A stretch of DNA of 64,000 nt. Origin: Embleya scabrispora. Its GTDB lineage: Bacteria; Actinomycetota; Actinomycetes; Streptomycetales; Streptomycetaceae. The DNA lies in assembly GCF_002024165.1 (NCBI RefSeq), contig NZ_MWQN01000002.1:1054001-1118000 (forward strand). The letters are read 5' to 3'. Numbering within the stretch: position 1 is the stretch's first letter; every line of letters starts with the position of its first letter. The notes under the pieces were generated by a model. The model saw only the letters and a list, made by a program, of their open reading frames with translations. It had not been told where the DNA came from and made no database searches. Positions 17,117 to 39,449 of the stretch are shown one piece after another. The position numbers and the translations under genes were made by a program.

Positions 17117-17121
17117 GTCGG

Positions 17122-19921: not shown

Positions 19922-20999
19922 GGACGTTCTCCGTTTCCAGGCCGTTCGCCTCGCATGCCTCGCGGAAGACCCGCAGGCAGCGCTGCCAGGGTTGCCCCGG
20001 TTCTCCCAGGGTCAGTAGATGGGGTGTCAGTTCGGCGGAGAAGGCGGTACTGGCCTCGCCGGGAAGCAGCGACGGCAGGTTGTCGATGGCGATCACGCCC
20101 AGCGGGTCGCCGACATCGGCCACCATACGGACCGGCTCGCGCCAATCGGTGATGTCGTCGTAGACGGGCAACACATTGTTCCCGGAGGTGACATCGCAGG
20201 TGACGTCCGCGATCAGGGACAGTCGCCGGGGCCGGGACCGGAGCGACGCGAGGGTGACGAACGGCGGGGTCGGCGTGTTCACCAGCACGGCGTTGACGAG
20301 GATGTCGTGATCGAGCAGCGCCGCGTGATCCAGGGACCGGGTCTCGGCGACGTCCCAGCAGGTCGGCTCGATGCCGGCGACCGCCAGCGCGTCGCGCGCG
20401 CCGCGCCCGCACCGGCCCAGCGCCCCGACGACCAGTACGCTCGGCTGCGCGCCGCTCGACGTCTCGCGCAACACCCGGTCGAGGTCCGCCTTCGGGCGTG
20501 GTCGCAACGGCGGATCCAGCCGGCCCCGATGGCGGAGCACCGCGAGCGCCGCGCCCACGTATCCGGCCCAATAGCCGAAGGCGGCCAACCGCCGCCCGTC
20601 CGCGTCGGTGAGGTATTCCAGGTCGAGCAGCGCACCGGCGCCCGCCGTGAAGCGCCGCAGCAGCGCCTCGGCGTCACGCTGGCCCTTGTACGCGTGGCCG
20701 AAGAACACATGCCGATGCCGCAAAGTCGGCGGCTCGTCCGGCAGTTCCTTCAGGCCCACGACGAACTCCGCAGCCGGGGCGGCCCGCCAGCTCCCGGCCT
20801 CGGCGGCCACGCAGCCGGCGTCCAGGTAGTCCCCGATCGGGAACACCCGCTGCGGCGAGTGCTCGACGGTGACCGTGAAGCCGTGCGCGACAAGCCGCGC
20901 GGCGTCGACCGGCACGATCGGCGCGCGCCGCTCGCTCTCGCGCGTCTCGTGCCGCAGCGTGATCCCGATGTCGGTCGTGCGCGGGCGGGGATCGGCCAT
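19914..20999 (-). CDS. Saccharopine dehydrogenase, L-lysine-forming (LYS1 type)
   Basis: A 361-residue protein with an AlaDH/PNT-type N-terminal domain and the LYS1 landmarks: RHETRESERRAP, EHSPQRVFP, the catalytic Lys in VGLKELP and His in FFGHAYKGQ, LLDLEYL and FGYWAGYVGAA, then ADVTCDV and DNLP near the end. LYS1 oxidatively splits saccharopine to lysine and 2-oxoglutarate with NAD. ATG 20999 follows GGAGGA. Together with the LYS9-type gene it forms a complete route from 2-aminoadipate 6-semialdehyde back to lysine. Confidence 0.93.
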   Translation of the reverse strand: MADPRPRTTDIGITLRHETRESERRAPIVPVDAARLVAHGFTVTVEHSPQRVFPIGDYLDAGCVAAEAGSWRAAPAAEFVVGLKELPDEPPTLRHRHVFFGHAYKGQRDAEALLRRFTAGAGALLDLEYLTDADGRRLAAFGYWAGYVGAALAVLRHRGRLDPPLRPRPKADLDRVLRETSSGAQPSVLVVGALGRCGRGARDALAVAGIEPTCWDVAETRSLDHAALLDHDILVNAVLVNTPTPPFVTLASLRSRPRRLSLIADVTCDVTSGNNVLPVYDDITDWREPVRMVADVGDPLGVIAIDNLPSLLPGEASTAFSAELTPHLLTLGEPGQPWQRCLRVFREACEANGLETENVHV

Positions 21000-21055
21000 G
21001 TGCTGTCCTCCGGGTGCGGGTTGCCTGTTCGTGGTCGAGCGGGGTCGGGGTCGGC

Positions 21056-23438: not shown

Positions 23439-24356
23439 TCATACGCCGGCCCGGCGCAGCAGCACCCCGATCCGTTGCCCGGGGACGCCGGCGGCCAACA
23501 GGTAGTGCCGGCCCGGTTGTACGTGTCCGGCCTCGGCCCGGTCGACCAGGTTGATCAGCGGGTCGGCGGCGAAGCAGTGGCCCACCCGGGTGATGTTGTC
23601 CAGATGGAGCTGGGCCGGGGTGAAACCGGCCTGCCGTTCCTTCATCACGATCACGGGCTTGAAGATGTTCGCGTGCATCAGGCCCGCGATGTCACCCGGC
23701 TTCATGCCCAGGGGGGTGAGCAGGCGCTCGTTCACGGTGCGGGCCAGGTCCGCGCTGATCTCGTTGGAGTGCGCCAGCCTCCTGCGGTCCTCGGCGCTAG
23801 CGCAGGCGAGGATCTCGTAGCCGCCCTCGATCTCGCCGTCGGCCGTCACCAGGCAACTCGCCGCCCCGTCGCTGAACAGTGCGTAGCTCGCCATGCGGTC
23901 GTCCTCGTGCGCGGCGCTGTCGGTGGTGACCACCAGTACCCGTCGGTGCCGGCCGGCGCGGACGAACGCGGTCGCGGTGTCGATCGCGGCCAGCAGGTTG
24001 ACGCAGCGGTTCATGTTCTGCCCGTAGAAGGGCACGTCGCCCAGGCCGGCTTCGGCGAGGAACGTCTCCATGAACGCGCCGTGCCCTTCCGAGGGTCCGG
24101 GCACGCGGGTGGAGCACAGTACGACGGCGTCGGCGTCGCTCGCGCCGGCGCGCAGCGTGGCCGCGGCGCTCTCCGCGGCCAGCTCCGCGAGGCCCCGCTC
24201 GGTCCGGCGTACGCTGCCCCAGCCCCACAGGTCGGGCGCCGGCGCCATTTTGAACTCCGCGGCGCGCGCGGGCAGATTGCCGATGCTCGTGTGCGCGACC
24301 TCGAACTCGCCCAGGACATAGCGGGGTTGATGCAGATAGGCGGTCACTTCGCTCAC
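23439..24356 (-). CDS. KAS III-like protein with altered catalytic triad
   Basis: A 305-residue thiolase-fold protein of the FabH/KAS III group. The nucleophile Cys is in NRCVNLLAAID (about residue 115), the His in LMHANIF (about residue 232). Where FabH has Asn in GNTSAAS, this protein has His in VGHCFAADP, giving Cys-His-His. KAS III proteins with a changed third residue (CerJ, ChlB6) are O-/N-acyltransferases rather than decarboxylating condensers, so acyl transfer from the operon's ACP is more likely than chain extension. GTG 24356 overlaps the preceding stop (GTGA). Confidence 0.82.
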   Translation of the reverse strand: MSEVTAYLHQPRYVLGEFEVAHTSIGNLPARAAEFKMAPAPDLWGWGSVRRTERGLAELAAESAAATLRAGASDADAVVLCSTRVPGPSEGHGAFMETFLAEAGLGDVPFYGQNMNRCVNLLAAIDTATAFVRAGRHRRVLVVTTDSAAHEDDRMASYALFSDGAASCLVTADGEIEGGYEILACASAEDRRRLAHSNEISADLARTVNERLLTPLGMKPGDIAGLMHANIFKPVIVMKERQAGFTPAQLHLDNITRVGHCFAADPLINLVDRAEAGHVQPGRHYLLAAGVPGQRIGVLLRRAGV

Positions 24357-25216
24357 GCGTCCTCCTCCGCCGCACCGGTCGGCGCGGACATCAGCGTGTT
24401 CGCCTCGGCGTAGGGCACGGCCTCGGCGACGAAGCCGAACGTCCCGTGTTCGTGCACCTCGCGCGCGGCGCGCAGGAAACCGCCCAGCGCGGCCCGGGCG
24501 AACGCCGAGCCCAGGCTGATCCGCCGGGCGCCCAGCTTCTCCAACTCCGGGACGGACAGCGCCGGTCCCACTCCCGCGAGCACGTTGACAGGCCGGTCGA
24601 GCACCGAGCACACGGTGCGGATGGCCTCGACGTCGGGCAGGCACGGCGCGTACAACACGTCGGCGCCCGCCGCCTCGTACGCCCGCAGCCGGGCGAGGGT
24701 GTCCGCGAAGTCGCGGCGGCCGTGCAGGAAGTTCTCCGCCCGTGCGGTCAGCGTGAACGGGAACGGCAGCGCCCGGGCCGCCGCCACGGCGGCCGCCACC
24801 CGCTCCACGGCCGGCTCGATCGCCAGGATCGGGTCGTCCGGATCGCCGGTGGCGTCCTCGATGGAGGCGCCCACCAGGCCCGCCTCGGCGGCGAGGCGGA
24901 TCGTCTCGGCGATCTCCTCGCCCGAATCGCCGTAGCAGCTCTCCAGGTCGGCGCTGACCGGGTTCGGCGTCGCCGCCACGATCGCGCGCGCGTTGTCCAG
25001 CGCCCGACCACGGTCCAGCAGGTTCACGCCGTCGGAGTGGCCCAGTGCGAAGGCCAGTCCCGCGCTCGTGGTCGCCAGCGCGGTGAAGCCGAGCCCCGTC
25101 AACAGGCGGGCGCTGCCCGCGTCCCACGCGTTCGCCACCACGAACGCTCCCGCGCTCTCGTGCGCCTCCTTGAAGGCGAGGCCCCTGCGGTACTGGTCAG
25201 CCGGGTCGAGCAGCAT
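24353..25216 (-). CDS. Isocitrate lyase/PEP mutase superfamily protein
   Basis: A 287-residue TIM-barrel enzyme of the PEP mutase/isocitrate lyase superfamily (NAWDAGSARLL, SADLESCYGD, ASIEDATGD, TARAENFL, RISLGSAF). The metal-binding Asp/Glu residues are present, but the loop that defines phosphonate-forming mutases (EDKXXXXXNS) is not, so a C-C lyase, hydrolase or decarboxylase acting on a 2-oxo or hydroxy acid is more likely. ATG 25216 has a GGAAGGA site and is preferred over an ATG at 25240. Its role in the pathway is unknown. Confidence 0.83.
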   Translation of the reverse strand: MLLDPADQYRRGLAFKEAHESAGAFVVANAWDAGSARLLTGLGFTALATTSAGLAFALGHSDGVNLLDRGRALDNARAIVAATPNPVSADLESCYGDSGEEIAETIRLAAEAGLVGASIEDATGDPDDPILAIEPAVERVAAAVAAARALPFPFTLTARAENFLHGRRDFADTLARLRAYEAAGADVLYAPCLPDVEAIRTVCSVLDRPVNVLAGVGPALSVPELEKLGARRISLGSAFARAALGGFLRAAREVHEHGTFGFVAEAVPYAEANTLMSAPTGAAEEDA

Positions 25217-25286
25217 TGCCGTTCCTTCCGATGCGTTCACGCGCCGGCGTGTCGACGCGCTCGTGTCCTGGTGTGCGGGTGGAGTC

Positions 25287-26081
25287 TCAGATCACTTCGA
25301 CGTGCTGGTCGGCCCGAACCGCGTTCAGCAGCAGGTCGATCACCGCCGAGGGCCCCTTGTCGCGGAAGTGGAAGTGGCCGCCGTCGACCCAGTGGCACTC
25401 GGGTGGGTGCACACACTCCTCTTCCCACAACGCGACCTTGTCGGGGGACAGGTAGGGGTCGTCGCGCCCGGCGATCACCGTGACGCCCACCGGCAGCGGG
25501 GCTGCGGCCGTGTACTCGTATCCGGCGGCCATCCGGAAGTCGGCGATCACGCCGGGCAGCAGCAGATCCAGAACCTCGTCCTGGGCCAGCACCTCCGGGG
25601 GCAGCCCCTCGAAGAACTCCAGTGCCTCGGCGAATTCGCGGCCCTCCAGGGCGGCAAGCCGACACACCCGCTCCGAGGGCGCGAGCGAGGGGGCCGAGAC
25701 CCCGGAGACGAACAACCGGCGCAGCGTGGGTACATCGCGCAACCGACGCGCGGTCTCGAACGCGACGAGGCTGCCCAGGCTGTGCCCGAACAGGTACACC
25801 GGCCGGGTGGCGTCGGCGCCCGGCGTGCCGGCCCGAGCCCGGATCGCCGAGGCCGCGCCGTCCGCGAATTGCGCCAGCGTCGGTCGGGCCTCGCGGGCCC
25901 GGTGGGCGCGGCCGGGCGGGCACACGGCGACCAGTTCGGCCTCGTCGCCCAACTCCGCCTGCCAGGTCAGGAACGACCGCGCGTCGCCGCCGGCGTGCGC
26001 GAAGCAGTACACGAGCGGGATGTGTGCGGCGGCATGGTCGCGCGAGACGAACCAGCCGTCGCCGGTCACGGACACACTCAC
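25287..26081 (-). CDS. Type II thioesterase
   Basis: A 264-residue alpha/beta hydrolase of the NRPS/PKS TE II group: CFAHAGGDARSF near the start, nucleophile GHSLGS (about residue 103), Asp in AGRDDPY and His in DGGHFHF. TE II enzymes remove wrong groups from carrier domains or release intermediates. No integrated TE domain occurs in the NRPS, so it could also release product. GTG 26081 overlaps the upstream stop (GTGA). Confidence 0.9.
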   Translation of the reverse strand: MSVSVTGDGWFVSRDHAAAHIPLVYCFAHAGGDARSFLTWQAELGDEAELVAVCPPGRAHRAREARPTLAQFADGAASAIRARAGTPGADATRPVYLFGHSLGSLVAFETARRLRDVPTLRRLFVSGVSAPSLAPSERVCRLAALEGREFAEALEFFEGLPPEVLAQDEVLDLLLPGVIADFRMAAGYEYTAAAPLPVGVTVIAGRDDPYLSPDKVALWEEECVHPPECHWVDGGHFHFRDKGPSAVIDLLLNAVRADQHVEVI

Positions 26082-27175
26082 GCGATCACCTCCGCCGACG
26101 TGGACCCGCCGGGCGTCGCGGGCGCGCGCAGCGAGAACGAGTGGGTGCGGTTCAGCGCCGGATCGCCCGGCCGCACGTGCAGTTCGCCGAGGTCCGGCCG
26201 CAACACCACCGCCGCCACGGTGCGTTCCCGGCGGATGTCGCCGTTGCCCTCGACCCGGATCGGCGCCCGCGACAGCAGCGCGAAGTGTGCCTCGACGCCT
26301 GCGTCGGGCGGCAACTCGCCCACCCGGGTCCGGCAGGCGTCCAGCCGCTGCCGGGAGAAGTTGCGGGCGAAGACGTTGAGTTCGTCGGAGGCGAGGAAGT
26401 CCGGGTGCAGGAAGTGGTTGGTGTGCATGCTCGTCGAGGACACGTTCACCCGCTGCTCGTCGTCCAGGATCTCCACCCACGCCGTCTTGCGGGCATCGCA
26501 CAACACCAGGTTGCGCGAACTCGCGAGCTTGAGCGTGCGCAGGATCCGCACCGCCTCGTCCACGTCGGCGGCGCTGTCCAACAGATGACGGATGGCCAGG
26601 TACGGCGGCAGTCCCGGCCGCCATCGGCCGCCGAGCACGAGATTGAGCCCGACCGCCAGGCCGTCGCTGTTGATCCCCAGATAGCCCAGGAGGCCACCGA
26701 AGCCGAGCACCAGGACCCGGCGGGGCGAGCCGGTCCGCGCGATGTCCAGGACACAGATCTGGTCGTCCAGGTCGCCGTTGAGATCGACCGTCTGCGCCAG
26801 CACCGGACCGGCCGCGCCGGCGACGGCGTACGTCGTACAGTCGCCCATGGTCGGGATGCGCTGGTATCCCATCACCTCGCGCCGGATCTGCAGCAGCAGC
26901 GCCTCGTCGGCATCCAGCCCCGCGCCCTCGGCGAGCCCGCGCAACTCCTCGGCCAGCAGCGGCGTCCGGGCCTCGATCTCGACCCGGTACGCGTCCAGCA
27001 CGGGCCGCAGCGTCGCCCACGACACCCGGTTCGTCCCGACCCGGTTGAGCCGGGCCATTCCGTCGTCGAGGAAGGCCCGCAGGCTCTCGGCGCGCTCGGC
27101 GCCGTGCCGCCGCCCGCACGCGAAGGCGTCGCCCCGGGCCCGCACCACCGGCACCGCGAGGGTGTCGGCGGTCAT
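26078..27175 (-). CDS. C45 peptidase/isopenicillin-type acyltransferase homolog
   Basis: A 365-residue Ntn-hydrolase of the acyl-CoA:6-aminopenicillanate acyltransferase family (peptidase C45). Self-cleavage is expected at the Cys of TMGDCTTYAV (about residue 118), making that Cys the N-terminal nucleophile; MHTNHFL and NVFARNFSR match later family positions. Known members exchange acyl groups on amines. Here it may acylate or deacylate the product or a self-protected intermediate. It overlaps its neighbours by four bases on both sides. Confidence 0.83.
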   Translation of the reverse strand: MTADTLAVPVVRARGDAFACGRRHGAERAESLRAFLDDGMARLNRVGTNRVSWATLRPVLDAYRVEIEARTPLLAEELRGLAEGAGLDADEALLLQIRREVMGYQRIPTMGDCTTYAVAGAAGPVLAQTVDLNGDLDDQICVLDIARTGSPRRVLVLGFGGLLGYLGINSDGLAVGLNLVLGGRWRPGLPPYLAIRHLLDSAADVDEAVRILRTLKLASSRNLVLCDARKTAWVEILDDEQRVNVSSTSMHTNHFLHPDFLASDELNVFARNFSRQRLDACRTRVGELPPDAGVEAHFALLSRAPIRVEGNGDIRRERTVAAVVLRPDLGELHVRPGDPALNRTHSFSLRAPATPGGSTSAEVIA

Positions 27176-27786
27176 GCCTGCCCCGTCGGCCTGGTCACCT
27201 TGGGCCCGGCGAGCAACTGCTCGCGCACCGAGGGCCATTCGCCGCGCAGCACGCTGTAGTAGATCGCGTCGCGCCGCCGTCCGCCGGGCATCGGGTTGAA
27301 GCTGCGCAGCACCCCCTCCTCGGTGGCGCCGATGTTGCGCAGTCCCGCGCGCGCCTGGAGGTTGAGCACGTCGGTCTTGAACTCCACCCGTTCGGCGTTC
27401 AGTTGTTCGAACGCGTGCTCCAGCATGAGGAACTTCGCCCAGCGGTTGACGCCCTTGCCCCGGAACTCGGCGCCCAGCCACGACCAGCCGATCTCCAGCC
27501 GCCCGTCCGGTTCGGCGATGCTGCAAAAGCTCATGCTGCCCGCCGTGCGGTCCACCGATTTGTCGATCACGTTGTAGACGACCCGGCGACCGGCGGCCTG
27601 ATCGGCCAGCGCCGCGTCGAAGAACGCGTCGAACTCGGCGTCGGTGGCGATGACCAGCACGAAGTAGCGCCAGATCTCGGGGTCCATCGCCTGTTTGCGG
27701 AACGCCTCGCGGTCCTCGGGGACGATCGGGCGCAGCAGGACGTGCTCGTTCTCCAGTGTCGTCGAAGCGGTCTGCACCCACGTCAT
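27172..27786 (-). CDS. GNAT N-acetyltransferase (RimJ/RimL-like)
   Basis: A 204-residue GNAT protein with the usual order: LLRPIVPEDREAF, EIGWSWLGAEFRGKGVN (acetyl-CoA loop RGKGVN near residue 111) and ARAGLRNIGATEEGVLR. It transfers an acetyl group to an amine. In a hydrazine pathway, N-acetylation for self-protection or tailoring is plausible but unproven. The stop overlaps the next start (ATGA); ATG 27786 lies directly after the ACP stop codon at 27788-27790 with no gap for a separate promoter. Confidence 0.88.
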   Translation of the reverse strand: MTWVQTASTTLENEHVLLRPIVPEDREAFRKQAMDPEIWRYFVLVIATDAEFDAFFDAALADQAAGRRVVYNVIDKSVDRTAGSMSFCSIAEPDGRLEIGWSWLGAEFRGKGVNRWAKFLMLEHAFEQLNAERVEFKTDVLNLQARAGLRNIGATEEGVLRSFNPMPGGRRRDAIYYSVLRGEWPSVREQLLAGPKVTRPTGQA

Positions 27787-27787
27787 C

Positions 27788-28051
27788 TCAAGCCGCCTTT
27801 CCGGCGTGGCGCGACAGCGCCTCGGTCACGTCGCGCAGCGTGCTCATGGCCGCGACGTCGGGTTCGGTGAAACAGGACAGGTCCACCCCGGCATCGTCGC
27901 AGGCGGCCATCAGGAACAAGACCTTGTTCAGCGAAGTCAATCCGTACGTGCCGACCATGTCCTGGTCCGGGTCGATGTCCTGGGGGGCGACGTCGGACTC
28001 CAACACCCGGGCCAGGTTCGTCCTGGCCACGGTCTCAATCTCGGACTGCAT
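27788..28051 (-). CDS. Free-standing acyl/peptidyl carrier protein
   Basis: An 87-residue carrier protein with the phosphopantetheine Ser in YGLTSLNKV (about residue 40) and four-helix spacing. ATG 28051 lies 17 bases inside the end of the upstream acyl-AMP ligase gene, so the two are probably translated together and the ligase is the likely loader. It may pass its acyl group to the KAS III-like transferase or to the NRPS. Confidence 0.85.
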   Translation of the reverse strand: MQSEIETVARTNLARVLESDVAPQDIDPDQDMVGTYGLTSLNKVLFLMAACDDAGVDLSCFTEPDVAAMSTLRDVTEALSRHAGKAA

Positions 28052-29579
28052 GGATGCCTCCCTCGGTGTCGTGGATCCGGGAACGGTAGGCGTCGAGAAT
28101 GCGCCCACGCCTGGGCTTGAGCTGGGAGGTGAGCAGTCCGTTCCCGACACTGAACCGGGGATCGGCCACCACCACCGCGCGGATCTGCTCGTCGGGGCCG
28201 AACGCGGCGTTGGTGTGGGCCAGTTGCTCGGCGACGGCGCGCTCCAGGTCGGGCCCGCTCGCATCCGCCGCCGGGGAGACCACGGCGACCAGCCGGGTCT
28301 GCGTCGGGCAGAACACCACACACTCCTCGATCGCGGGACCGGCCTTCATCCGCTCCTCCAGCGGCCGCACGACGATCTTGCGGCCGTTGTCCAACACGAT
28401 CACGTCGTCGGCGCGCCCGTGCACGTACAGGAATCCGTCCTCGTCCAGCCGGCCGATGTCGTTGGTGCGCACGGTGCCGTCGGGGGCGAACACCCGCTCG
28501 GACACCCCGGGCGGCGCCTGCTCGTAGCCCGTGCACACCGGGTGCTCGGCGCGTACGTGGATCACCCCTTCGGCGTCCAGGATCACCTGTTTCCCCGGCA
28601 GGACACGCCCGACACTGCCCCGCCGATGCGCGCCGGGGTGGTTCTTGGTGACGATGCACGTCTCGTTGAGGCCGTAGCCCTCGAAGATCGGCAGTCCCGC
28701 GTCCTCGAAGAAGGCCAGCGTGCCGGTGGAGGCCGGCGCCGAACCGGTCCACAGATAGCGGATGCGGTCGCCGAACAACCGCCGCGCGCCGTCGCGGCGC
28801 GCCGTCGCCTCGCCCGTGTCCGCGCCGCGCATCCGCGCCTCGATGTGCTTGCGGGCCGTCTCGAAGAACCCCGGCACACCCATCACCACCGTCGGCCGGA
28901 TCGCGCGCAGCGCCGGGAACGCGGCCTCGTAGGTGCAGATCGTGACGTCGTGGCCCCAACGCAGCGCCGAATACGTCCAGTAGCGCTGCTGGAGCACCGA
29001 CAGCGGCAGGAACACGAGCAGGTTGTCCTCGCCGCCGTGCGCGAACATCTCCTGGACCGAGCGCAGATCGTCGTCGATGCTGCCGACGGACGCGGTGAGC
29101 GTCTTGGGTTCGCCCGTGCTGCCCGAGGTGAGCTTCAGCGACAACACGTCGTCGGGCGTATAGACGACCGGTGCCAACACCCGACCGTCGTCCGGTAGGG
29201 CCGCCGCGACCTCGATCTCGGCGAGCGCCCTGCTGCCGGGGGCCTGGGGTGGCCCGTCGGTGAACAGCACGCCCAGCCGGTAGCGTTCGCGCAGCCCGGT
29301 GTCGGTGTCGAACTTGGCCGGGTCGAAGCCCACCGTCACCGCGCCCAGGCGGATCGCCGCGAGATCGAGCAGCACCCAGGCGAGGCCGTTCGGGGCCAGG
29401 ATGCCGATCCGGTCGCCCCGCTCGATGCCCAGGTCGCGCAACCACAGCGCGAGGCGCCCGGCGCGCGTGTGCAGGTCGGTCAGTTCCATCGTCCGGGTCC
29501 CGCCGAGCCGGAAGAAGGAGATGTGCCCGCCGGGGGAGGGGGCTTGGGCGGCGATGTGGTTGATCACCGAATCGCTCAC
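28035..29579 (-). CDS. Stand-alone acyl-AMP ligase (adenylation enzyme)
   Basis: A 514-residue ANL enzyme with LKLTSGSTGEPKTL (P-loop-like A3, about residue 140), YGLNETC (A5), TNDIGRLDEDGFLYVHGRADD (A7/A8) and the catalytic Lys in SQLKPRRG (about residue 485). It resembles long-chain acyl-CoA/AMP ligases more than amino-acid A domains, lacking the conserved Asp235 context. It probably activates a carboxylic acid and loads the small ACP encoded next. The acid could be a fatty acid or hydrazinoacetate; sequence does not decide. GTG 29579 overlaps the NRPS stop. Confidence 0.88.
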   Translation of the reverse strand: MSDSVINHIAAQAPSPGGHISFFRLGGTRTMELTDLHTRAGRLALWLRDLGIERGDRIGILAPNGLAWVLLDLAAIRLGAVTVGFDPAKFDTDTGLRERYRLGVLFTDGPPQAPGSRALAEIEVAAALPDDGRVLAPVVYTPDDVLSLKLTSGSTGEPKTLTASVGSIDDDLRSVQEMFAHGGEDNLLVFLPLSVLQQRYWTYSALRWGHDVTICTYEAAFPALRAIRPTVVMGVPGFFETARKHIEARMRGADTGEATARRDGARRLFGDRIRYLWTGSAPASTGTLAFFEDAGLPIFEGYGLNETCIVTKNHPGAHRRGSVGRVLPGKQVILDAEGVIHVRAEHPVCTGYEQAPPGVSERVFAPDGTVRTNDIGRLDEDGFLYVHGRADDVIVLDNGRKIVVRPLEERMKAGPAIEECVVFCPTQTRLVAVVSPAADASGPDLERAVAEQLAHTNAAFGPDEQIRAVVVADPRFSVGNGLLTSQLKPRRGRILDAYRSRIHDTEGGIHAVRD

Positions 29580-32500
29580 GGCGTGTTCGCCCCCGCCCCG
29601 GCGCGCTCGGCCAGACCGCGTTCGACGTGCGCGGCCATCGTGCGGATCGTGTCCACCTCCGGCAGGCGGTCCAGCGTGATGGTCAGACCGAACCGTTTGC
29701 GCACCCCGGCGAGGATGCGCGCGGCCACCAGCGAGTCGCCGCCCAGGTCGTAGAGAGGGCGGGTGACGTCCAGGTCGACGTCCGCGACGCGCAGCGGTTT
29801 GGCCCACAACCCCGCGACCACCAGCTCCAGTTCCGAATCGGCGGCCGTGGGCCCGGCCGTCGCCGGTGCGACCGCCTCGGCGGCGGCCGCGAGCCCGGCA
29901 CGGTCCACCTTGCCGTTGCGGGTCAACGGCAGCGCGGCGTGCCAGTACACGGCGGCCGGGATCATGTACTGCGGCAGATGTTCGCGCAGCGCGGCGCGAA
30001 CCGCCTCCACGTCCGGGCGTTCGTCGCCGGCCGGGACCAGATGGGCGACCAGCCGATCGCCGCGCGCGCCCGACTGCCGGGAGACCACCGCGCGTTCCAC
30101 GGCGGGCAACGCGACCAGTCGGGTCTCCACCTCTCCGGCCTCGATGCGGTAGCCGTTCACCTTGATCTGGAAGTCGCCCCGGCCGAGGATGTCGATCTCG
30201 CCGTCCGGCAGGTAGCGACCCAAGTCTCCCGTCCGGTACCGGCGTTCGCCCCGTTCGGGGTCGAGGACGAAGCGCTCGGCGGTCAACTCCGGGTCGCCCC
30301 AGTAGCCTCGCGCCAGGCCCACCCCGGCGGCCCAGATCTCGCCAGTGACCCCGTCGGGCACATCGCACCCGAACTCGTCCAGCACGTACGCCCGGTTGTT
30401 CGCGTTGGGCCGACCGTAGGGGATGCTGCGCGAGCCGTCCTCGTCCGCGCCGATCGGGTGCGACACGTTCCAGATCGTGGTCTCCGTCGGCCCGCCCAGC
30501 GAAACGAGTCGCGCGTCCGGCACGAGCTTGCGCAGGTCCTGTGGCAGCGTCGGCGGAATACGGTCGCCGCTCATCATCACCAGGCGCAGCGTGTCCAGCG
30601 CGTCCGTGCCCTCCGCCGCCTGATCGCGCAGCAGCGACACGATCGCCGGCACCGAGTTCCACACGCTCACGCGCGCCTCGCCGCACAACGACAACCAGTG
30701 CGCGGGATCGGCCGCTCGGTCCGCGTCCGGCAACACCACGGCCGCCCCGGAGCACAGGGCGCCGAAGACGTCGTAGACGGACAGGTCGAAATTGAAGGCG
30801 CTGATCCCGAAGAAGCGGTCCGCCGGCCCGATGCCGAAGCGCGCGTTGCAGTCGGCGACCACGTTGGCCACGCTCCCGCGAGCGACCATGACCCCCTTGG
30901 GCTCGCCGGTGGTCCCCGACGTGTACAACACGTACGCCAGATGGTCGTCGTTCGCGGCGCCGGGCACCGGACGCGGATCGGGCACCGGTCCCGGCGGCAG
31001 CGGCCGGCCGGCGTCGAGCACCAGGACCTCGCGTCCCGTCTCGGCGCCCGCCTCCGCGGCGTTGGTCAACACCACCCGTGCCCGGCCGTTGTCCAGCATG
31101 TACGCGCGCCGCGCGGGCGGGAGCGCGGCGTCGACGGGCAGGTACGCGGCCCCGGCGAGCAGCGTCGCGAGAATGCCGACGACCTGCTCGGGCCCACGAC
31201 CCATCACCAGCCCGACCAACTCGTCCGGGCCCACGTCGTGGGCGCGCAACCAGGCGGCGGCGTGCGCCGCGTGCCCGTACACCTGCGCGTAGCTCAGCGA
31301 GGCGCCCGAGGTCAGTACGGCCGGCGCGTCGGGCGCACGCTCCACGTGCGACAGGAACGCGTCGATCAGCATGCCCGGCGCGGGCGGCGGCGCCGCCGTC
31401 GCGTTGGCCGCCCGGCGGCGCTCGCGCTGCGCCTCCGGCAGCAGGTCGAATGTCCGCGCCGACCACGATTCCTCGACGAGCAGCGCCTCCAGGAGGTGCT
31501 GGTAGCCCGCGACCAGATCCGGCACCAGACCGTCCGGGAACAGTTCGTCGACGCTGTCGAACTGCACGACCACGCCGCCGTGTTGCTCGAACGTGGAGAC
31601 ATCGAGCCACACCTGCGGGGTCTGACTGGAGGTGTACACCTCCGGTCCGAACAGCTCCAGGGCCGAGCCGTCGACGTCCGCGTGCGCGTAGCCGAGCGCG
31701 CTGTTGAACGTGTACGGCATCGGCCCGCGCGCCGCGCCGTCGCCGCGTCGGGCGGCCTCGCGCAACACCTCGATGCCGGTGAAGTGCCGGTTGTCCAACC
31801 CTCGGCGCAGCCCGGCCTGCAACGCCCGGGCCCGCTCGACGAAGGGCAGGCGCCGGTCCACCTCGACCTCGACGAGCATCGTCTCGCAGAAATTGCCGAC
31901 CGCCTCGAAGATGCGCGGGTGGATCGGCGGACGGTTCGCCACCGTGGTGTTGATCGTGAACCGCGAACCGGCGCCCCAGGCCGCGAGGGTGTCGGCGTAC
32001 ACCGCGAACAGCACGGCGGAGGGGGTGAGTCCGGCCGCCGCCGCCCGGGCCCTGAGCGCGGTCCACCGCGGCTCGGTCAGCCGGGCGAAGCGCGCCGAGA
32101 AGCGTGGCGCCACGATCGAGGAGGGACTGGTACGCAGGGGCAGGTCGGGGGCGGGCGCGAGGTCGTCGAGCCGGTCCATCCAGTACGCGCGGGCCCGCTT
32201 CGCCGGGGCCCGGGTACGCGCGGCCTCGATCGCGGCCACGTAGGCCTCGAAGGACGCCTCCTCCGCCGGGGCTTCGGCGGTGTCCCCGGTCGAGTCGCCG
32301 CTCGCGTCGTAGGCCCGGCGCCAGTCGCGGAAGAACAGGAACATGCCGATCGCGTCCATGACCAGGCCGTCGTGGTCGACGTGCAGCACCATCCGGTCGT
32401 CCGCCAACACGGTGACGTCGACCGCCACGAGCGGCGCGCGGTCGGCCGGCAGCACCCGGTGCGAGCGCGACGCGCGTTCGGTGCGCAGGTGTTCGTGCCG

Positions 32501-32929
32501 CGTCGCCTCGGACGCGTCGCGCAGGTCCATGCGCCCGACGCGCACCTCGACCTCGGCCTCCCGCACCTGTCGGCCGTCGGGGGTGAAGCGGGTGCGCAAC
32601 GCGTCGTGGCGTGCCACCACCGCCCGCAGCGCGGCCTCCAGGCGGTCGAGGTCCCAGGCGCCCTCGATCTCGTGGTAGACGTGACTGGCCACGTTGCCCA
32701 TCTCGACGTGCTCGCCCCGACCGACCAGATAGCTGCGTTGCAGGTCGGTCATCGCGAAGCCGTCCGGGGGATCCAGATGGGCGACGAGGGCCGCCTTGTG
32801 CTCCTTGATCAGGCGCAGCAGCTCGGGATCCATGCGTTCCCGGGGACCCTGCAGGCGCAGATCGGCTCCGGCGGCCGAGATGGTCAGCCCCCTGGCCTCG
32901 ATCTCGTGGAGAACCCCGAGGTGGTTCAC
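29576..32929 (-). CDS. NRPS: TubC docking - heterocyclization - A(Cys) - PCP
   Basis: A 1117-residue single-module synthetase. Residues 1-55 are a TubC-like docking domain. The condensation domain (about 60-480) is of the Cy type: DGLVMDAIG matches DxxxxDxxS except for the final Gly, and SQTPQVWLD and PYTFNSALG are Cy-specific. The A domain (about 519-990) has LYTSGTTGEPKG near 670. Its pocket reads D-L-Y (in DLSVY), N (VWNS), M-S (VMMSGD), L-I-W (TTIW), the cysteine code DLYNMSLIW. PCP Ser is in GGDSL (about 1061). There is no TE. It should form a thiazoline from cysteine and an upstream carrier-bound acyl group. GTG 32929 overlaps the previous gene by four bases. Confidence 0.93.
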   Translation of the reverse strand: MNHLGVLHEIEARGLTISAAGADLRLQGPRERMDPELLRLIKEHKAALVAHLDPPDGFAMTDLQRSYLVGRGEHVEMGNVASHVYHEIEGAWDLDRLEAALRAVVARHDALRTRFTPDGRQVREAEVEVRVGRMDLRDASEATRHEHLRTERASRSHRVLPADRAPLVAVDVTVLADDRMVLHVDHDGLVMDAIGMFLFFRDWRRAYDASGDSTGDTAEAPAEEASFEAYVAAIEAARTRAPAKRARAYWMDRLDDLAPAPDLPLRTSPSSIVAPRFSARFARLTEPRWTALRARAAAAGLTPSAVLFAVYADTLAAWGAGSRFTINTTVANRPPIHPRIFEAVGNFCETMLVEVEVDRRLPFVERARALQAGLRRGLDNRHFTGIEVLREAARRGDGAARGPMPYTFNSALGYAHADVDGSALELFGPEVYTSSQTPQVWLDVSTFEQHGGVVVQFDSVDELFPDGLVPDLVAGYQHLLEALLVEESWSARTFDLLPEAQRERRRAANATAAPPPAPGMLIDAFLSHVERAPDAPAVLTSGASLSYAQVYGHAAHAAAWLRAHDVGPDELVGLVMGRGPEQVVGILATLLAGAAYLPVDAALPPARRAYMLDNGRARVVLTNAAEAGAETGREVLVLDAGRPLPPGPVPDPRPVPGAANDDHLAYVLYTSGTTGEPKGVMVARGSVANVVADCNARFGIGPADRFFGISAFNFDLSVYDVFGALCSGAAVVLPDADRAADPAHWLSLCGEARVSVWNSVPAIVSLLRDQAAEGTDALDTLRLVMMSGDRIPPTLPQDLRKLVPDARLVSLGGPTETTIWNVSHPIGADEDGSRSIPYGRPNANNRAYVLDEFGCDVPDGVTGEIWAAGVGLARGYWGDPELTAERFVLDPERGERRYRTGDLGRYLPDGEIDILGRGDFQIKVNGYRIEAGEVETRLVALPAVERAVVSRQSGARGDRLVAHLVPAGDERPDVEAVRAALREHLPQYMIPAAVYWHAALPLTRNGKVDRAGLAAAAEAVAPATAGPTAADSELELVVAGLWAKPLRVADVDLDVTRPLYDLGGDSLVAARILAGVRKRFGLTITLDRLPEVDTIRTMAAHVERGLAERAGAGANTP

Positions 32930-35229
32930 GCCGGCACCCCCGCGCGTGCGGCGACCTCGTCCGGGTCCAGGCCCTCGGCGATCAGCGCGCTCAGTTCGGT
33001 GACCGTGCGGGCGCCGAGCAGTTCCTCGATCGGGACGTCGGCGTCGACCTGCTCGGTGAGTCGGTACTGCAGGGCGATCGCCTGGAGCGACGCCATGCCC
33101 AGCTGGATCAGCGAGCGGTCGTGCACGGGCTCGTCGGCGGGCAGTCGCAGGAGATCGCGCACCAGCGCGCTGAACCACGGGAGCAGCGGCGGTTCCGGTC
33201 GGTCGGCGGCCGGGGCCGAGGGTCGCGCGTCGGCCGTTCCGGGGACGGCGAAGAACTCCCGGCCGGCCAGGTCGACGACGGTCCCGGCGGGCACCAGGTC
33301 GATCCGGGCGGGCCAGCGGGTGGGCGCGGGGATGCCGAGCGCGGCCGAGAGGCGGTCCGCGAACCGGGGCATCACCGGGGCGCCGCACGTGGCGAGCAGC
33401 CGGGCGGCGGCCAGTTCGAGGGCGATCGCCGTGCGCGCCTCGTCCTTGAAGTCCGCCACGTCGGCGGCGGGAGCCTGGAGACGGACGAAGGCGGTGACGT
33501 CCGTGACGATGCCGTCGAGCAGTTCGGCCGCGCGGTTGAGCGAGAAGCCGTCCTGCCCCAGGGCCCCGGTCAGCGCCGAGCGGCGCGCCTCCAGGCGGGC
33601 CAGGAAGGCCGCGTGTTCGGGCCGCCACACACCGGCGTCGGGCGCCACGCCCGCATACCGTTCGGCGACGCGCTCGCCCAGGTCGTTCAGCCACGTCTGC
33701 CAGGTGCCGACCAGGGTGTCGCGGACGAAGCTCTCGTACGCGTCGGGGGAGAAGCTGGTGCGCCGGCCCTCGGGGCGGGTCAGCGCGAGGTAGAAGCGGA
33801 TCGAGTCGACCGTGCGCGGGTTCAGCACGTCCTTGCCCCAGATCGCGTGGCCGCGGCTGGTGGAGAACTTGCTGTCCTCCAGCAGGTAGAACTCGTTGAT
33901 GTTGTAGTCGATGTCCGGCTGCCAGCGCGGATGCGCGACCCGGTACAGCGCCGGGATGAACATGGGGTGGAAGAAGCTGCCGTCCGAGCCCAGGAAGTGC
34001 ACGATCTTCCAGTCGGGCGAGGGGGCGTCCGCGTCCCAGTCGCGGCCCAGGCCGCGCCCGAGTTCCCCGATGCCGTAGAGGATGCTGAAGGCGTAGTCCA
34101 GCCAGGACCAGATCACCTGGCCCGGCACATCGGTCTCGGCGGGGGTGATGCCCCACTCGGCCACGTGCGTGACCGGGATGTGCAACTGCTCGCGGCGCGA
34201 GAGGCGTTCGGCCAGTTCCTTGACCGCCGCCGGAACCCGGCCGAGCCGGTGGTGGTCGGTGACGACCTTCCCGAACTCGTGCAGCGGGAAGGTGTAGCGC
34301 ACCAGCGCCCGCTCGTGCGGAGGCGCGTCGCACGCCGCCGAGCGCGGCTCGATCAGGTCGGTGCACACGTTGGGTTCCAGGCACGTCTCGCAGATGTTGC
34401 CACCGCTGTCGCCGTCGCACGTGGGGCAGCGGCCGGAGACTCCCGACTCGTACAGGTATTCGCCGGTGTCGGCGGCGAACAGCGCGGCACTCTCGCGCGG
34501 CGCCACGGTTCCCGACGCGGTCAGCCGGGAGAAGAACGCCCGCAGCGCGGCCGGATAGGCGTCGTCGCGGCTGGTCGCGGTGTACTGGTGGACGTCGATG
34601 TCCATCAGCTTCAGCGTGGCGAGGATCTCGGCGCTGTAGTGCGCGGCCGTCTGAGCCGGGGTGCGACCCTCCCGACGGGCGGCGGCCACCACGTAGTTCT
34701 GGTAGTCGTCGCTGCCGGTGATGTGCCAGGCGTCGGCGCCGAGCATGCGCTGATGGCGGACGAACACGTCGGCGCCGAAGAACGGCCCCGACAGGTGCCC
34801 CAGATGCAGGTCCCCGTTGGGCGTGGGCGCGGAGGAGAAGACGAACACGGGACGCGTGCCGAACCCGCGGTGCCCGGTGTCGTGGGCGGCGTTCATCGCC
34901 CGGTCGCCGTCGCGCCAGTACAGGCTGACGAACAGCAGGTCGGTGTCCCCCGTGTTCTCCACGGAGTGGGTCTCGAACGGTTCGAACTGCACCACGGTGG
35001 ACGCGGACACCGGATGGCGTTCGGCGTCCACGGTCAACTCCCCGGTGCCGGAGACGAACACCCATGTCTCCGTCTCGTCGTGCTGGTGCGCCTCCGAGCG
35101 CGCGCCGGGGGCGACACCGACCCAGGTCGCGCCGACACCCAGCCGCGTCGCGGAACCCGCCTCCACGGCGGCCACGGCGACGCCGTCGGCGGCGTGGGGG
35201 GCGTCGGGGCGGTAGGTGCTGATCTTCAC
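32926..35229 (-). CDS. Hydrazine synthetase: cupin - MetRS-like - carrier domain fusion
   Basis: A 767-residue fusion. Residues 1-95 are a cupin (HQHDETETWVF, the metal-binding His/Glu set). Residues about 115-640 are a methionyl-tRNA-synthetase-like catalytic core with HLGH (near 141), Cys-rich zinc knuckle CPTCDGDSGG..CETC, and KFSTSRG (near 451). The first two parts are those of Spb40-type enzymes, which couple N6-hydroxylysine with glycine through an N-N bond. The C-terminal 85 residues add a carrier domain with LGMASLQAI (Ser near 711). That extra domain would let the glycine-derived unit be held or handed to the NRPS encoded next. GTG 35229 follows AAGGAG. Confidence 0.93.
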   Translation of the reverse strand: MKISTYRPDAPHAADGVAVAAVEAGSATRLGVGATWVGVAPGARSEAHQHDETETWVFVSGTGELTVDAERHPVSASTVVQFEPFETHSVENTGDTDLLFVSLYWRDGDRAMNAAHDTGHRGFGTRPVFVFSSAPTPNGDLHLGHLSGPFFGADVFVRHQRMLGADAWHITGSDDYQNYVVAAARREGRTPAQTAAHYSAEILATLKLMDIDVHQYTATSRDDAYPAALRAFFSRLTASGTVAPRESAALFAADTGEYLYESGVSGRCPTCDGDSGGNICETCLEPNVCTDLIEPRSAACDAPPHERALVRYTFPLHEFGKVVTDHHRLGRVPAAVKELAERLSRREQLHIPVTHVAEWGITPAETDVPGQVIWSWLDYAFSILYGIGELGRGLGRDWDADAPSPDWKIVHFLGSDGSFFHPMFIPALYRVAHPRWQPDIDYNINEFYLLEDSKFSTSRGHAIWGKDVLNPRTVDSIRFYLALTRPEGRRTSFSPDAYESFVRDTLVGTWQTWLNDLGERVAERYAGVAPDAGVWRPEHAAFLARLEARRSALTGALGQDGFSLNRAAELLDGIVTDVTAFVRLQAPAADVADFKDEARTAIALELAAARLLATCGAPVMPRFADRLSAALGIPAPTRWPARIDLVPAGTVVDLAGREFFAVPGTADARPSAPAADRPEPPLLPWFSALVRDLLRLPADEPVHDRSLIQLGMASLQAIALQYRLTEQVDADVPIEELLGARTVTELSALIAEGLDPDEVAARAGVPA

Positions 35230-35248: not shown

Positions 35249-36343
35249 TCACGCGTGCGGAGGAATCGAGGACAGGTCCAGCAGATCCGCGGCCTCCGCC
35301 GCGATCGCCGGGGCGAGCCGATATCCGGACCCGTTGGCGGCGCCCGCGAAGACGACGCGTCCGTCGCCCAACGCCCGCACCTGCGGTTCGCCGGTGGGGC
35401 TGTACGCGTCGCAGAACACCCGTCCCGAGACGCGGTGTTCGGCCAGCGCGGGGGCGTGCCGGCGCAGACTCGCGCGCGCCTGGTCGACGTCGTCGGCGGA
35501 CAGGCCGCCGGCCAGGTCGTCGGGATCGACGTCCCAGGTCGTACAGGTGTAGCTGAACAGCCAATGTCCCGAGGCGTGCAGCGGCAGCAGGAACGCGTCC
35601 TCGTCGTGGAAGACGACGGCCCGGTCGGTGCGGGCCGGGACCCGCTCGACATGCAGGGCGACGATCTTCTTGACGCGGGCGCCCAACGGGGCCAGCAGCG
35701 CGCGCCAGGCGGGTTCGGCGAGCCAGGGTCCCGGGGCCAGTACGACCCGATCCGCGGTCACCGTCTCGCCGGTGCCGAGGGTGAGTTCGACCCCGTCCGG
35801 GCCCGGGTCCGCGGAGCCGACGGCGCGCATCGTGTCCACGTGCACACCCTCGCGCAGGGTCACCCGGGGCCGTAGTTCCCGGGCGAGGCCGTGGACCAGC
35901 GCGTAGACGTCGGCGTACTGGGCGCCGCGACAGTCCCAGACCCGCGCGGAATCGGGAAGTCGCAGATCGGTAGGGCCGGTTCGACCATCGGGAGAGTCGA
36001 CGGGGGTCAACTCGGCGCTGTCGAGGTAGATCTCGCGCACGCGCGCGGCGTTCGCGGGGGAGGCGACCACCGACATCGGAACCGCGTGAATCGGCAGCCT
36101 GGGCGCGGAGTCCTTGAGTTCGGCGTAGTACCGCTGGCTGTACGCCGTCATGCGCCGAACCCGCTCCGTCGCGCCGCGCGGACAGTGCAACCCGGCCGAC
36201 CGGCGGCTCGCTCCGGTACCGACGGTGTCCCGGTCCAGCAGCAGGACGGACGCCTGCGGCGCGCGGGCGACGATCTCCCGGGCGACCAGGCAGCCGACGA
36301 TTCCGGCGCCGACGACCGCCACATCGGTGTGTTCCCGGCTCAC
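35249..36343 (-). CDS. FAD-dependent amine oxidase (DAO family) of the hydrazine set
   Basis: A 364-residue flavoenzyme of the DAO/glycine-oxidase family. The FAD-binding VVGAGIVG is at residues 9-16 and the C-terminal FAD/active-site region is DGRVVFAGAANGSGYRLAP. In s56-p1 biosynthesis the equivalent enzyme (Spb39) oxidises N6-(carboxymethylamino)lysine, freeing hydrazinoacetate and 2-aminoadipate 6-semialdehyde. The same step is inferred here from gene context. GTG 36343 overlaps the lysine hydroxylase stop (GTGA). Confidence 0.88.
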   Translation of the reverse strand: MSREHTDVAVVGAGIVGCLVAREIVARAPQASVLLLDRDTVGTGASRRSAGLHCPRGATERVRRMTAYSQRYYAELKDSAPRLPIHAVPMSVVASPANAARVREIYLDSAELTPVDSPDGRTGPTDLRLPDSARVWDCRGAQYADVYALVHGLARELRPRVTLREGVHVDTMRAVGSADPGPDGVELTLGTGETVTADRVVLAPGPWLAEPAWRALLAPLGARVKKIVALHVERVPARTDRAVVFHDEDAFLLPLHASGHWLFSYTCTTWDVDPDDLAGGLSADDVDQARASLRRHAPALAEHRVSGRVFCDAYSPTGEPQVRALGDGRVVFAGAANGSGYRLAPAIAAEAADLLDLSSIPPHA

Positions 36344-37692
36344 AGAGCGTCCAGATCGTCGACGGGCGGTTTGGCGGACCACTCCACGAACGACGGCAAT
36401 TGTTCGTCGGAGCCCACCCCGAGAAGCCGGTCGAGGATGCGCCGGCTGCGCCAGGCGGTCAGGCTCAGATTGGGATCCGCCAGTCCGCGCTGACCGCGTG
36501 CCGCGTTCTGCATGAAAATGAGGCGGTCGCGGGGGCCGTCCCATTGCACGGCGAAATCCCGGTCGATGCGATACTCGTCGCCCTCGCGCTCCAGGCGGCT
36601 TTCGATCGGCGCGAGGAATTCGGTCGACGCCGGACGAAAACCGGTGGCCCACACGATGGTGTCCACATCCACGTACTCGACCACACCCGGCCGGTCGTTG
36701 TGGCCCATCTCGATGGTCCACCCGCCGGACTCGTTCCCGCTCACCTCGGTGACCGCACGATTGGGCAGCAGCGCCAGCAGATCCTGCGTGCCCTCGATGA
36801 AGCGGTGCTCGTAGCAGCGCTGGTAGATCTCCCGCAACGTCGACTCGGAGATGCCGTCGCTGCTCAGCACATGACGCCTGTTGAGCGACTCGCGAACCGC
36901 CCGGTCCACCCCGGCGAAATACTCCGAATAGCTCGGCGTGTAGTACTCGTTGGTGAAGGGCGAGTCGTCGATGGGGAAGTAGTTCCCGCGCCGCGAGATC
37001 CAGGTCACGCGCCGGGGTAATTTCCTCGGCGCCCGTGATATCAGATCCAGAAACGCCTCGGCTCCGGACTGGCCGCCCCCGACCACGGCGACCCGCTTGC
37101 CGGCGAGTCCGGGGCGTGTTCCGTCGATGAAGTCGCTGACGTGGAACTGGGTGTCGCCGAGTTTGTCCCGGGCATGCTCGGGAACCCATGACGTGGTACC
37201 GACACCGACGCAGATGTTCTCCGCCGTCACGGTGCGCCGGCCGGTGTGCACGACGAACGCGGCACGCGCGTCGTCGAACTCCACGGCATCCACTTTCTCG
37301 CCGAAGACGATGTTCTCGTTGCGTCGGCTCGCCCACTCCAGATAGTTCCGGAATTCCCGGCGGGGAACCGCGTCGTATTGGGCGTTGATGAAGTGGTAGA
37401 TCTTGCCCTGCTCGTGCAGATACGAGAGGAAGGAGAACCCGTTGGTCGGGTCGGAGAGGATGACGAGATCCTTGAGCAGCGACACCTGTAAGGACGCGCC
37501 GGGTATCTGCTGATTGTCGTGCCAGCCGAACCGCTCCTTCTGGTCGAGAAAGAGGTTCGGCGTCTCCGCGCGCCCGTGCAGCAGTGACGCCAGGCTCAGG
37601 TTGGCAGGACCGACCCCGATGCCGACACAGCGGTACTGCGCCGACTGGGGTTCGATGTTTCCCGAAACACGGTTTTCGACTGGTTTCCGCAC
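36340..37692 (-). CDS. L-lysine N6-monooxygenase (IucD/SidA family)
   Basis: A 450-residue flavin N-hydroxylase. FAD motif GIGVGPANLS is at about residues 24-33, the substrate region LLKDLVILSDPTNGFSFLSYL at about 75-95, the NADPH motif VVGGGQSGAEAF near 203 and ATGFRP near the C-terminus. It converts lysine to N6-hydroxylysine with NADPH and O2. Siderophore enzymes share this family, but no siderophore synthetase is present; the adjacent cupin-MetRS and DAO genes point to hydrazine formation. It is the first gene of the operon. The start is GTG 37692; the ribosome site is poor. Confidence 0.92.
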   Translation of the reverse strand: MRKPVENRVSGNIEPQSAQYRCVGIGVGPANLSLASLLHGRAETPNLFLDQKERFGWHDNQQIPGASLQVSLLKDLVILSDPTNGFSFLSYLHEQGKIYHFINAQYDAVPRREFRNYLEWASRRNENIVFGEKVDAVEFDDARAAFVVHTGRRTVTAENICVGVGTTSWVPEHARDKLGDTQFHVSDFIDGTRPGLAGKRVAVVGGGQSGAEAFLDLISRAPRKLPRRVTWISRRGNYFPIDDSPFTNEYYTPSYSEYFAGVDRAVRESLNRRHVLSSDGISESTLREIYQRCYEHRFIEGTQDLLALLPNRAVTEVSGNESGGWTIEMGHNDRPGVVEYVDVDTIVWATGFRPASTEFLAPIESRLEREGDEYRIDRDFAVQWDGPRDRLIFMQNAARGQRGLADPNLSLTAWRSRRILDRLLGVGSDEQLPSFVEWSAKPPVDDLDAL

Positions 37693-39179: not shown

Positions 39180-39330
39180 GAGGCTGAGCCCGCACGTCGG
39201 ATGCCGTGCCCGAGGGTGCGGCATCCGGCGTGTTCCGGCGCATCGGACGCCCGGGTTCCTACCGGCCGGCGGGAGCCCAGCCGGAGTCCGGCCCGAGCCC
39301 AGCCAGCCGGACCCCAGCCCAGCCCAGCCC

Positions 39331-39449
39331 GAGTCCCGCCCGGGCCCGAGTCCCGCCCGGGCCCGAGTCCCGCCCGGGCCCGAGTCCCGCCCGGGCCCGA
39401 GTCCCGCCCGGGCCCGAGTCCCGCCCGGGCCCGAGTCCCGCCCGGGCCC
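39331..39449. repeat. 17-bp tandem repeat x 7 between precursor and enzymes
   Basis: GAGTCCCGCCCGGGCCC is repeated seven times without a change, preceded by an imperfect AGCCCAGCC stretch from about 39288. Each unit holds the palindrome GGGCCC and CCCGGG, so the RNA can fold into many alternative GC-rich hairpins. It lies in the 0.3 kb gap between the precursor stop and the ribosome site of the DUF4135 gene. Confidence 0.9.

Follow-up and report, generated by a model that had tools for sequence, protein, structure and literature searches.

The closest described relatives of the locus examined here are the azaserine (azs/aza) clusters of S. fragilis and G. harbinensis, in which AzsS succinylates hydrazinoacetic acid (HAA), AzsP loads it on AzsQ and AzsT desuccinylates it, after which AzsF makes the hydrazone, AzsD transfers it to the carrier of AzsN and the cyclization (Cy) domain of the non-ribosomal peptide synthetase (NRPS) AzsO joins it to the serine hydroxyl (PMC10445470). 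Every carrier-tailed AzsN homologue is encoded immediately upstream of azsO, and the hand-over from the AzsN carrier to AzsO was shown in vitro, with the Cy domain taking acyl from AzsN only and refusing AzsQ (PMC10445470). We analysed a 64,000-nucleotide stretch of Embleya scabrispora (the window; NCBI RefSeq GCF_002024165.1, contig NZ_MWQN01000002.1, positions 1,054,001 to 1,118,000), which carries an adjoining pair of genes, N and O, homologous to azsN and azsO. Our reading, to which we give a probability of about 0.5, is that this pair corresponds to AzsN/AzsO in a pathway of azs type and belongs to a separate lineage without AzsF and AzsG, where hydrazinoacetyl would be coupled to cysteine as an amide or a thiazoline. 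Within that reading an azs-type hand-over pathway is very probable, delivery of the acyl group as hydrazinoacetyl is rather probable, and formation of a thiazoline ring is less probable than not.

The window shares 16 gene families, the N–O pair and the Thr-to-Asn change in the Cy domain with the azs/aza clusters, and differs from them in that azsF and azsG (or azsU) were not found in its lineage, that gene order is permuted (PMC10445470) and that its lineage has Asp443 and a DLYN code where the azs-type clusters examined have DLWN. The N-nitroglycine (NNG) cluster of S. noursei/S. yunnanensis likewise has the HAA trio with a carrier-tailed synthetase, an NRPS and a diiron oxidase, together with two P450s, one of them essential, whereas none was found in the window cluster (PMC13274452). 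The triacsin (tri) and dob clusters have HAA synthesis and the S/P/Q/T loading logic in common with the window, but have a dehydrogenase (Tri22/DobM), a polyketide synthase, a tail-less hydrazine synthetase and no such Cy NRPS. Ring-forming EpoB, BmdB, HMWP2 and PchE share with O the DxxxxD and SQTPQVWLD-type motifs with catalytic Asp, and BmdB also the Cys-type code and EpoB the docking domain, but the window has Asn for the dyad Thr and its hydrazine-acid donor sits on a tRNA-synthetase-like protein. The N/O architecture is already known from azaserine, and the window lineage is a variant of it, not a new kind.

The original prediction, made from the DNA alone, had placed a docking-Cy-adenylation (A)-peptidyl carrier protein (PCP) gene after a carrier-tailed hydrazine enzyme, and this was borne out by Pfam and by the docking fold, although the range 29576–35229, given as one gene, holds two (Table 1). 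N (767 amino acids) contained Cupin_2, tRNA-synt_1g and PP-binding domains and O (1117 amino acids) Condensation, AMP-binding, AMP-binding_C and PP-binding domains, with the stop of N and the start of O overlapping by 4 nt (GTGA), an overlap repeated at the junction of O and P. The TubC_N score of O was 21.7 bits against a Pfam cut-off of 26. An AlphaFold model of residues 1–59 (pLDDT 86) displayed a helix-strand-strand-helix-helix order, the alpha-beta-beta-alpha-alpha docking fold, and Foldseek matched it best to PDB entries for the docking-cyclization bidomain of EpoB, the beta-hairpin docking domain of AerJ and rhabdopeptide docking domains (best E 1.7e-3, probability 1.00); the fold supports a predicted TubC/beta-hairpin docking domain at the N-terminus of O. 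Embleya hyalina N is 97% identical to that of the window and the N–O pair is retained in 9 other clusters of the window lineage, and given this conservation the arrangement, judged on sequence, is more than chance. In the window and E. hyalina the residue beside the carrier Ser in N is Ala (LGMASL for LGMESL).

Sixteen azs homologues lie in a single block running from 37692 down to 15734 on the minus strand (L M N O P Q S T B C D E H I J K), 14 of them besides N and O, and all 16 reading frames are open. Gene letters were taken from Table 1 of PMC10445470, with support from Pfam and the positions of homologues. The block contains the HAA trio L, M and N, with carrier-tailed N directly upstream of O, so the hydrazinoacetic acid machinery presupposed by the original prediction is present, as well as homologues of S, P, Q, T, D and B and of the diiron oxidase AzsE. 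The homologues of S, P, Q, T, D and B and the N-to-O transfer have functions shown in the azaserine work (PMC10445470), and the direct carrier-to-docking hand-over proposed for the window would have a strong precedent in AzsN/AzsO. The carrier of N, however, was not predicted to be filled by its own enzyme, as first supposed, but by homology would be loaded by the AzsD homologue (23439–24362).

O was compared among 24 proteins from actinobacterial clusters with HAA genes, plus two singletons. The window type accounts for ten (window, L005–L010, L065, L066, L088) and the azs type for 14 (L029–L033, L067, L072, L091, L092, L094, L097, L098, L100, L103). The set contains near copies (L067/L100, L032/L033, window/L005) and the counts are therefore not independent events. 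An O-like row from L055 proved to be an ordinary condensation (C)-A module and was excluded from both counts and tree. L068, L069 and L071, with no HAA genes within the fetched stretch, were used as outgroups, and 8 of 15 listed plasmid matches were fetched. All ten window-type proteins combined an Asn/Asp dyad with the code DLYNMSL[IV]WK, and all 14 azs-type proteins an Asn/Asn dyad with DLWNMSL[IV]WK. The two types were fixed differently at 12 of 1117 positions, including (azs to window type) the catalytic N443D, the pocket change W719Y and F445S, which is the +2 position in the Cy active-site strand, where some Cy domains carry a helper Gln. The random chance of fixed differences hitting the dyad was 0.04 and the code 0.035, both post hoc and with relatedness ignored. 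At the level of sequence, these differences suggest an altered substrate or an altered chemistry, without distinguishing the two, more than drift.

In the N tree the ten window-type rows formed one group (support 100/99), joined by the singleton G041 (100/97), and the azs-type rows formed a separate group with 11 of 15 tail-less synthetases (99/99). The O tree, which has long branches, grouped the ten window-type proteins (84/97) and the 14 azs-type proteins (82/82), with G041, Sinorhizobium meliloti and the outgroups unresolved at the base. Across the window lineage, Amycolatopsis included, O was at least 66% identical and J was present in 10/10 members. Of the singletons, G041 has an Asn/Asn dyad and the code DLYNMSLIWK, with azsF and azsG unmatched in the stretches fetched, and S. 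meliloti pSmeSM11b has Asn/Asn and DLFNMSLVWK, with azsF present and azsG unmatched.

Queries for azsF and azsG from L052, which Pfam assigned to acyl-CoA dehydrogenase and P450, gave no match at E <= 1e-8 to either azsF or azsG in the window and the retrieved stretches of nine other window-type clusters, the azsG search being confined to these loci. In eight window-type clusters E is followed directly by H (a partial match in L088) and in two by J (L062, L063), and therefore there is no room for azsF or azsG at that place in any of the ten. The azs-type clusters, by comparison, had azsG in 14/14 and azsF in 13/14 (L033 is cut at the edge and the L032 stretch ends before azsF). The best azsF match in the window genome was 35% identical, with best matches of 35–45% in 7/7 window-type genomes searched, whereas two azs-type orthologues were 67% identical; a 46% paralogue was also present in an azs-type genome. 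We infer that no enzyme encoded elsewhere takes over from AzsF in the window lineage.

E is the only late oxidase found in the window cluster. Its residues E589, H599, E661, H689, D693 and H699 were invariant in an alignment of 25 rows and resemble the ligand pattern of SznF (E215, H225, E281, H311, D315, H318; PMC11705231), differing in the last spacing, and a profile search of E against NCBIfam gave no match. A diiron oxidase has been proposed to hydroxylate the terminal nitrogen to a nitrosamine, which can collapse to a diazo group (PMC13274452), and the oxidase taking hydrazone to diazo in azaserine is not identified in the accessible text of PMC10445470, PMC13061610 or PMC13274452. In the window lineage E would act on a hydrazine or perform both oxidations.

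The code DLYNMSLIW and the motif SQTPQVWLD, both claimed originally, read as stated. The motif ends at D443, and DxxxxDxxG corresponds to D187-D192-G195. Ring-forming Cy domains have a putative Thr and Asp dyad, and mutation of dyad or helper residues severely impairs cyclodehydration in other Cy domains (PMC9547227). Alignment to EpoB, HMWP2, Irp2, PchE and BmdB showed that the residue of O homologous to the catalytic Thr is Asn409, so that of the ring-forming features DxxxxD and the catalytic Asp are present and the dyad Thr is replaced. AzsO has Asn at both dyad positions (N414 and N447), the Thr-to-Asn change was proposed as a possible signature of ester-forming Cy domains, and restoring either Asn to the canonical residue abolished ester formation with no ring gained (PMC10445470). 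O therefore has the first AzsO-type feature, Thr to Asn of the FTS motif (N409, 10/10 lineage members), and lacks the second, Asp to Asn in PQVxLD, with D443 kept in 10/10. Some AzsO homologues counted as azaserine-type retain the Asp (PMC10445470), so the second change is not strictly defining for ester-forming domains, and these homologues may be the window lineage itself. PchE is a ring-forming Cy domain, and its deposited sequence reads Ala where the dyad Thr would stand; the Thr may therefore be dispensable and is not an absolute criterion. Since N409 is the change that marks the ester-forming AzsO domain, a thiazoline, the originally predicted product, cannot be assumed and is one of several outcomes.

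Two other readings of the Cy motifs were discarded. The Thr of SQTPQV was ruled out as the dyad Thr by alignment to solved Cy domains. The Gly of DxxxxDxxG, which had been suggested to alter cyclization, is present (G195), but it is a private change without explanatory value, the position being Ser in 8/10 lineage members and Ala in E. hyalina, and a functional Ser-to-Gly change in DxxxxDxxS was ruled out on those grounds.

The pocket residues of O (D715, L716, Y719, N758, M786, S787, L811, I819, W820, K1007) fit the Cys-activating signature DLYN[LM]SLIWK, and the BmdB code, DLYNLSLIW, is one residue off. BmdB activates Cys. DLYNMSLIWK is itself listed among Cys-activating signatures with ring-modified residues, and Trp as well as Tyr occurs at position 239 of Cys codes (PMC12283262), which rules out Tyr/Trp there as a clean Cys/Ser switch. 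Cysteine is somewhat favoured over serine as the amino acid of O. If it is Cys, acylation of the side chain would lead to an S-to-N shift, so that an amide or thiazoline would be expected, not a thio-azaserine.

In the proposed route, lysine and glycine would be converted to hydrazinoacetic acid by L, N and M, and the acid would be succinylated by S, loaded by P on Q and desuccinylated by T. D would then transfer hydrazinoacetyl to the carrier of N, which the docking domain of O would capture. Cysteine, loaded on the PCP of O by its A domain, would be acylated by the Cy domain, and the side-chain thioester would shift to the amine, giving hydrazinoacetyl-cysteine and, provided that D443 with N409 still cyclodehydrates, a thiazoline. 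B would release the product, and E would oxidise the hydrazine nitrogen. Gene content, domains, residues and lineage come from this analysis and the roles of S, P, Q, T, D, B and the hand-over from homologues; the cysteine, the ring, the role of E and the lack of a trans substitute for AzsF we infer. The original wording of a hydrazinomethyl product is favoured by the lack of the dehydrogenase and the P450, a lack that the prediction had not recognised; it had likewise overlooked the azaserine pathway and Asn409. A fuller version of the route, which we consider unlikely, would yield a cysteine counterpart of azaserine, with hydrazinoacetyl handed to O as the unoxidised hydrazine, 2-(hydrazinomethyl)thiazoline made by O, and E alone taking the nitrogen all the way to a nitrosamine, diazo or nitramine group with no hydrazone dehydrogenase or P450, giving a diazo-/nitroso-methyl thiazoline class.

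Several points weigh against coupling to cysteine without AzsF and AzsG. The dyad Thr of O is Asn, as in ester-forming AzsO, and an AlphaFold model of the docking and Cy domains (510 amino acids, 7 rows) had a pLDDT of 46, too low for use on the active site. AzsO was called 'Cys' by antiSMASH whereas it uses Ser (PMC10445470), which makes the A-domain code, although a Cys-type signature as predicted, weak evidence, and the Tyr/Trp difference cannot separate Cys from Ser because both occur in Cys codes. Elsewhere in the window genome 22 azsF matches at E <= 1e-20 were found, and AzsF could be replaced in trans by a generic acyl-CoA dehydrogenase, or by E. D443 and the lack of azsF and azsG are not strictly linked, since G041 lacks both genes and has a window-like code, yet has Asn at 443. 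The azs type was defined by the Asn/Asn dyad, gene order and the presence of azsF and azsG, not by the S. fragilis AzsO sequence, and no collected O sequence matched both published residue spacings of that protein (221 and 33).

The close rival to cysteine coupling is a serine ester, azaserine itself or an O-acyl-serine/threonine relative, with a sizeable chance although short of even. Here O would take Ser (or Thr), the Thr-to-Asn Cy domain would esterify it, as its N409 signature suggests, and E, conserved with ligand-like residues, would oxidise the hydrazine to a diazo group alone or with a housekeeping dehydrogenase. Retention of Asp in some azaserine-type AzsO homologues (PMC10445470), the proposed diiron oxidase route through a nitrosamine (PMC13274452) and the many acyl-CoA dehydrogenases in the genome are consistent with it. 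It is opposed by D443 with DLYNMSL[IV]W in 10/10 window-type members, and by azsF and azsG being unfound in 10/10 against azsG in 14/14 and azsF in 13/13 fetched azs-type stretches. As a branch of the cysteine reading, a condensation-only Cy domain would leave a linear N-hydrazinoacetyl-cysteine amide, then oxidised or conjugated (e.g., by the ATP-grasp enzyme J); Asn409 at the dyad Thr position and J in 10/10 lineage members speak for this outcome, but D443 is kept, dyad and helper mutations severely affect cyclodehydration in other Cy domains, and ring-forming PchE does with Ala at the Thr position; we regard this outcome as improbable. A decaying or non-functional azs remnant, suggested by the two absent azs genes and, in the window and E. 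hyalina, by Gly/Ala in DxxxxDxxS and an Ala flanking the phosphopantetheine Ser of N (LGMASL), is highly improbable given 16/16 open frames, O at least 66% identical as far as Amycolatopsis, and the catalytic and carrier residues kept.

Table 1. Coordinates in the window of the azs homologues and of the domains and codons discussed.
Feature	Coordinates	Strand	Assignment and support
L	36340..37692	-	lysine N6-hydroxylase, AzsL/Tri26/Spb38 type; PF13434 1.8e-93; position in azs clusters
M	35249..36358	-	flavin adenine dinucleotide oxidase, AzsM type, would release hydrazinoacetic acid; DAO 4.8e-32; synteny; start approximate
N	32926..35229	-	hydrazine synthetase of AzsN type, cupin + methionyl-tRNA-synthetase-like + C-terminal carrier; GTG start; Pfam, homologues adjoining O
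Carrier domain of N	32980..33174	-	residues 686-750, phosphopantetheine Ser in LGMASL; PF00550 3.2e-7; 24 homologue tails compared
O	29576..32929	-	NRPS docking-Cy-A-PCP, AzsO type; GTG start; Pfam, alignment
Docking domain of O	32765..32929	-	TubC-type beta-hairpin; PF18563 2.2e-4, below cut-off; AlphaFold and Foldseek
Cy domain of O	31415..32764	-	D187/D192, N409 replacing Thr, D443 retained; alignment
Asn409 codon of O	31703..31705	-	Thr in most ring-forming Cy domains; alignment to EpoB, HMWP2, Irp2, PchE, BmdB
Asp443 codon of O	31601..31603	-	catalytic Asp; Asn in 14/14 azs-type clusters; alignment
A domain of O	29909..31348	-	code DLYNMSLIWK; Pfam
PCP of O	29624..29818	-	LGGDSL; PF00550 2.5e-13
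P	28035..29579	-	AMP-ligase, AzsP/Tri29 type, succinyl-hydrazinoacetate loading by homology; PF00501 7.4e-41
Q	27788..28054	-	free carrier protein, AzsQ/Tri30 type; no Pfam match; equivalent position in related loci; start approximate
S	27172..27786	-	GNAT succinyltransferase, AzsS/Tri31 type; PF13302 6.8e-20
T	26078..27184	-	C45 hydrolase, AzsT/DobA type, desuccinylase by homology; PF03417, NF040521 1.8e-67; start approximate
B	25287..26081	-	thioesterase, AzsB type; PF00975 4.8e-33; start approximate
C	24353..25240	-	isocitrate lyase/phosphoenolpyruvate mutase family, AzsC; PF13714 3.4e-70
D	23439..24362	-	KAS-III-like acyl transfer enzyme, AzsD/Tri13, predicted loader of N carrier; PF08545 3.1e-9; start approximate
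E	21056..23395	-	haem-oxygenase-like diiron oxidase, AzsE/NngH type; PF14518 5.8e-16
H	19914..21029	-	alanine dehydrogenase/saccharopine-type dehydrogenase, AzsH, lysine supply; PF05222; start approximate
I	18761..19921	-	saccharopine dehydrogenase, AzsI; PF16653 2.7e-35
J	17122..18456	-	ATP-grasp ligase, AzsJ; PF13535 2.7e-16
K	15734..17128	-	major facilitator superfamily transporter, AzsK; PF07690 3e-35; start approximate

Between I and J, at positions 18488–18723, a 9-bp unit is repeated some 26 times, and the I–J gap is 0.3 kb in the window and about 0.14 kb in the compared E. hyalina and E. scabrispora. A LanKC-like class III lanthipeptide synthetase (RamC_N, kinase, LanC-like; 12712–15477, plus strand) adjoins the cluster, and a run of three plus-strand genes (39201–43986) begins with a protein bearing DUF4135, a LanM-type domain, and ends with a weak cupin match.

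Related clusters were found in further settings. In the G041 cluster (L034, L055) P and Q are separated by two additional C-A-PCP NRPS genes, of which the second also has a thioesterase, and the hydrazine unit may be built into a longer peptide. The conjugative rhizobial plasmid pSmeSM11b of S. meliloti SM11 (L070, L104) carries an azs-like L M N O P Q S T D E F, with the P450 unmatched, adjoining two further NRPS genes, an MbtH gene and a phosphopantetheinyl transferase gene, and several Sinorhizobium plasmids carry similar pairs of NRPS and class I tRNA ligase. On giant Streptomyces plasmids L068 and L069 encode AzsO-like NRPSs (53–55% identical) with Asp/Thr and Thr/Asp Cy dyads, HAA genes being unmatched within the 35 kb fetched. 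On linear plasmids (L067, S. lavendulae pSA3239; L072, Streptomyces sp. NBC_00158) the azs-type cluster adjoins serine-tRNA ligase, VlmB-like and flavin reductase genes, which, named as annotated, look like a valanimycin-type set.

Genome mining for diazo clusters demanded a Pfam02770 acyl-CoA dehydrogenase in the neighbourhood (PMC13061610), and would therefore have mostly left out the window lineage, unless another such gene lay nearby. A literature search, with subscription journals mostly and supplements outside its reach, found no report of an azs variant lacking azsF and azsG. The cluster product could be new. A lineage that keeps E without F and G offers a ready comparison for what E does alone, and the N409/D443 pairing, intermediate between the ester-forming Asn/Asn and the ring-forming Thr/Asp Cy domains, provides a natural handle on each dyad residue.

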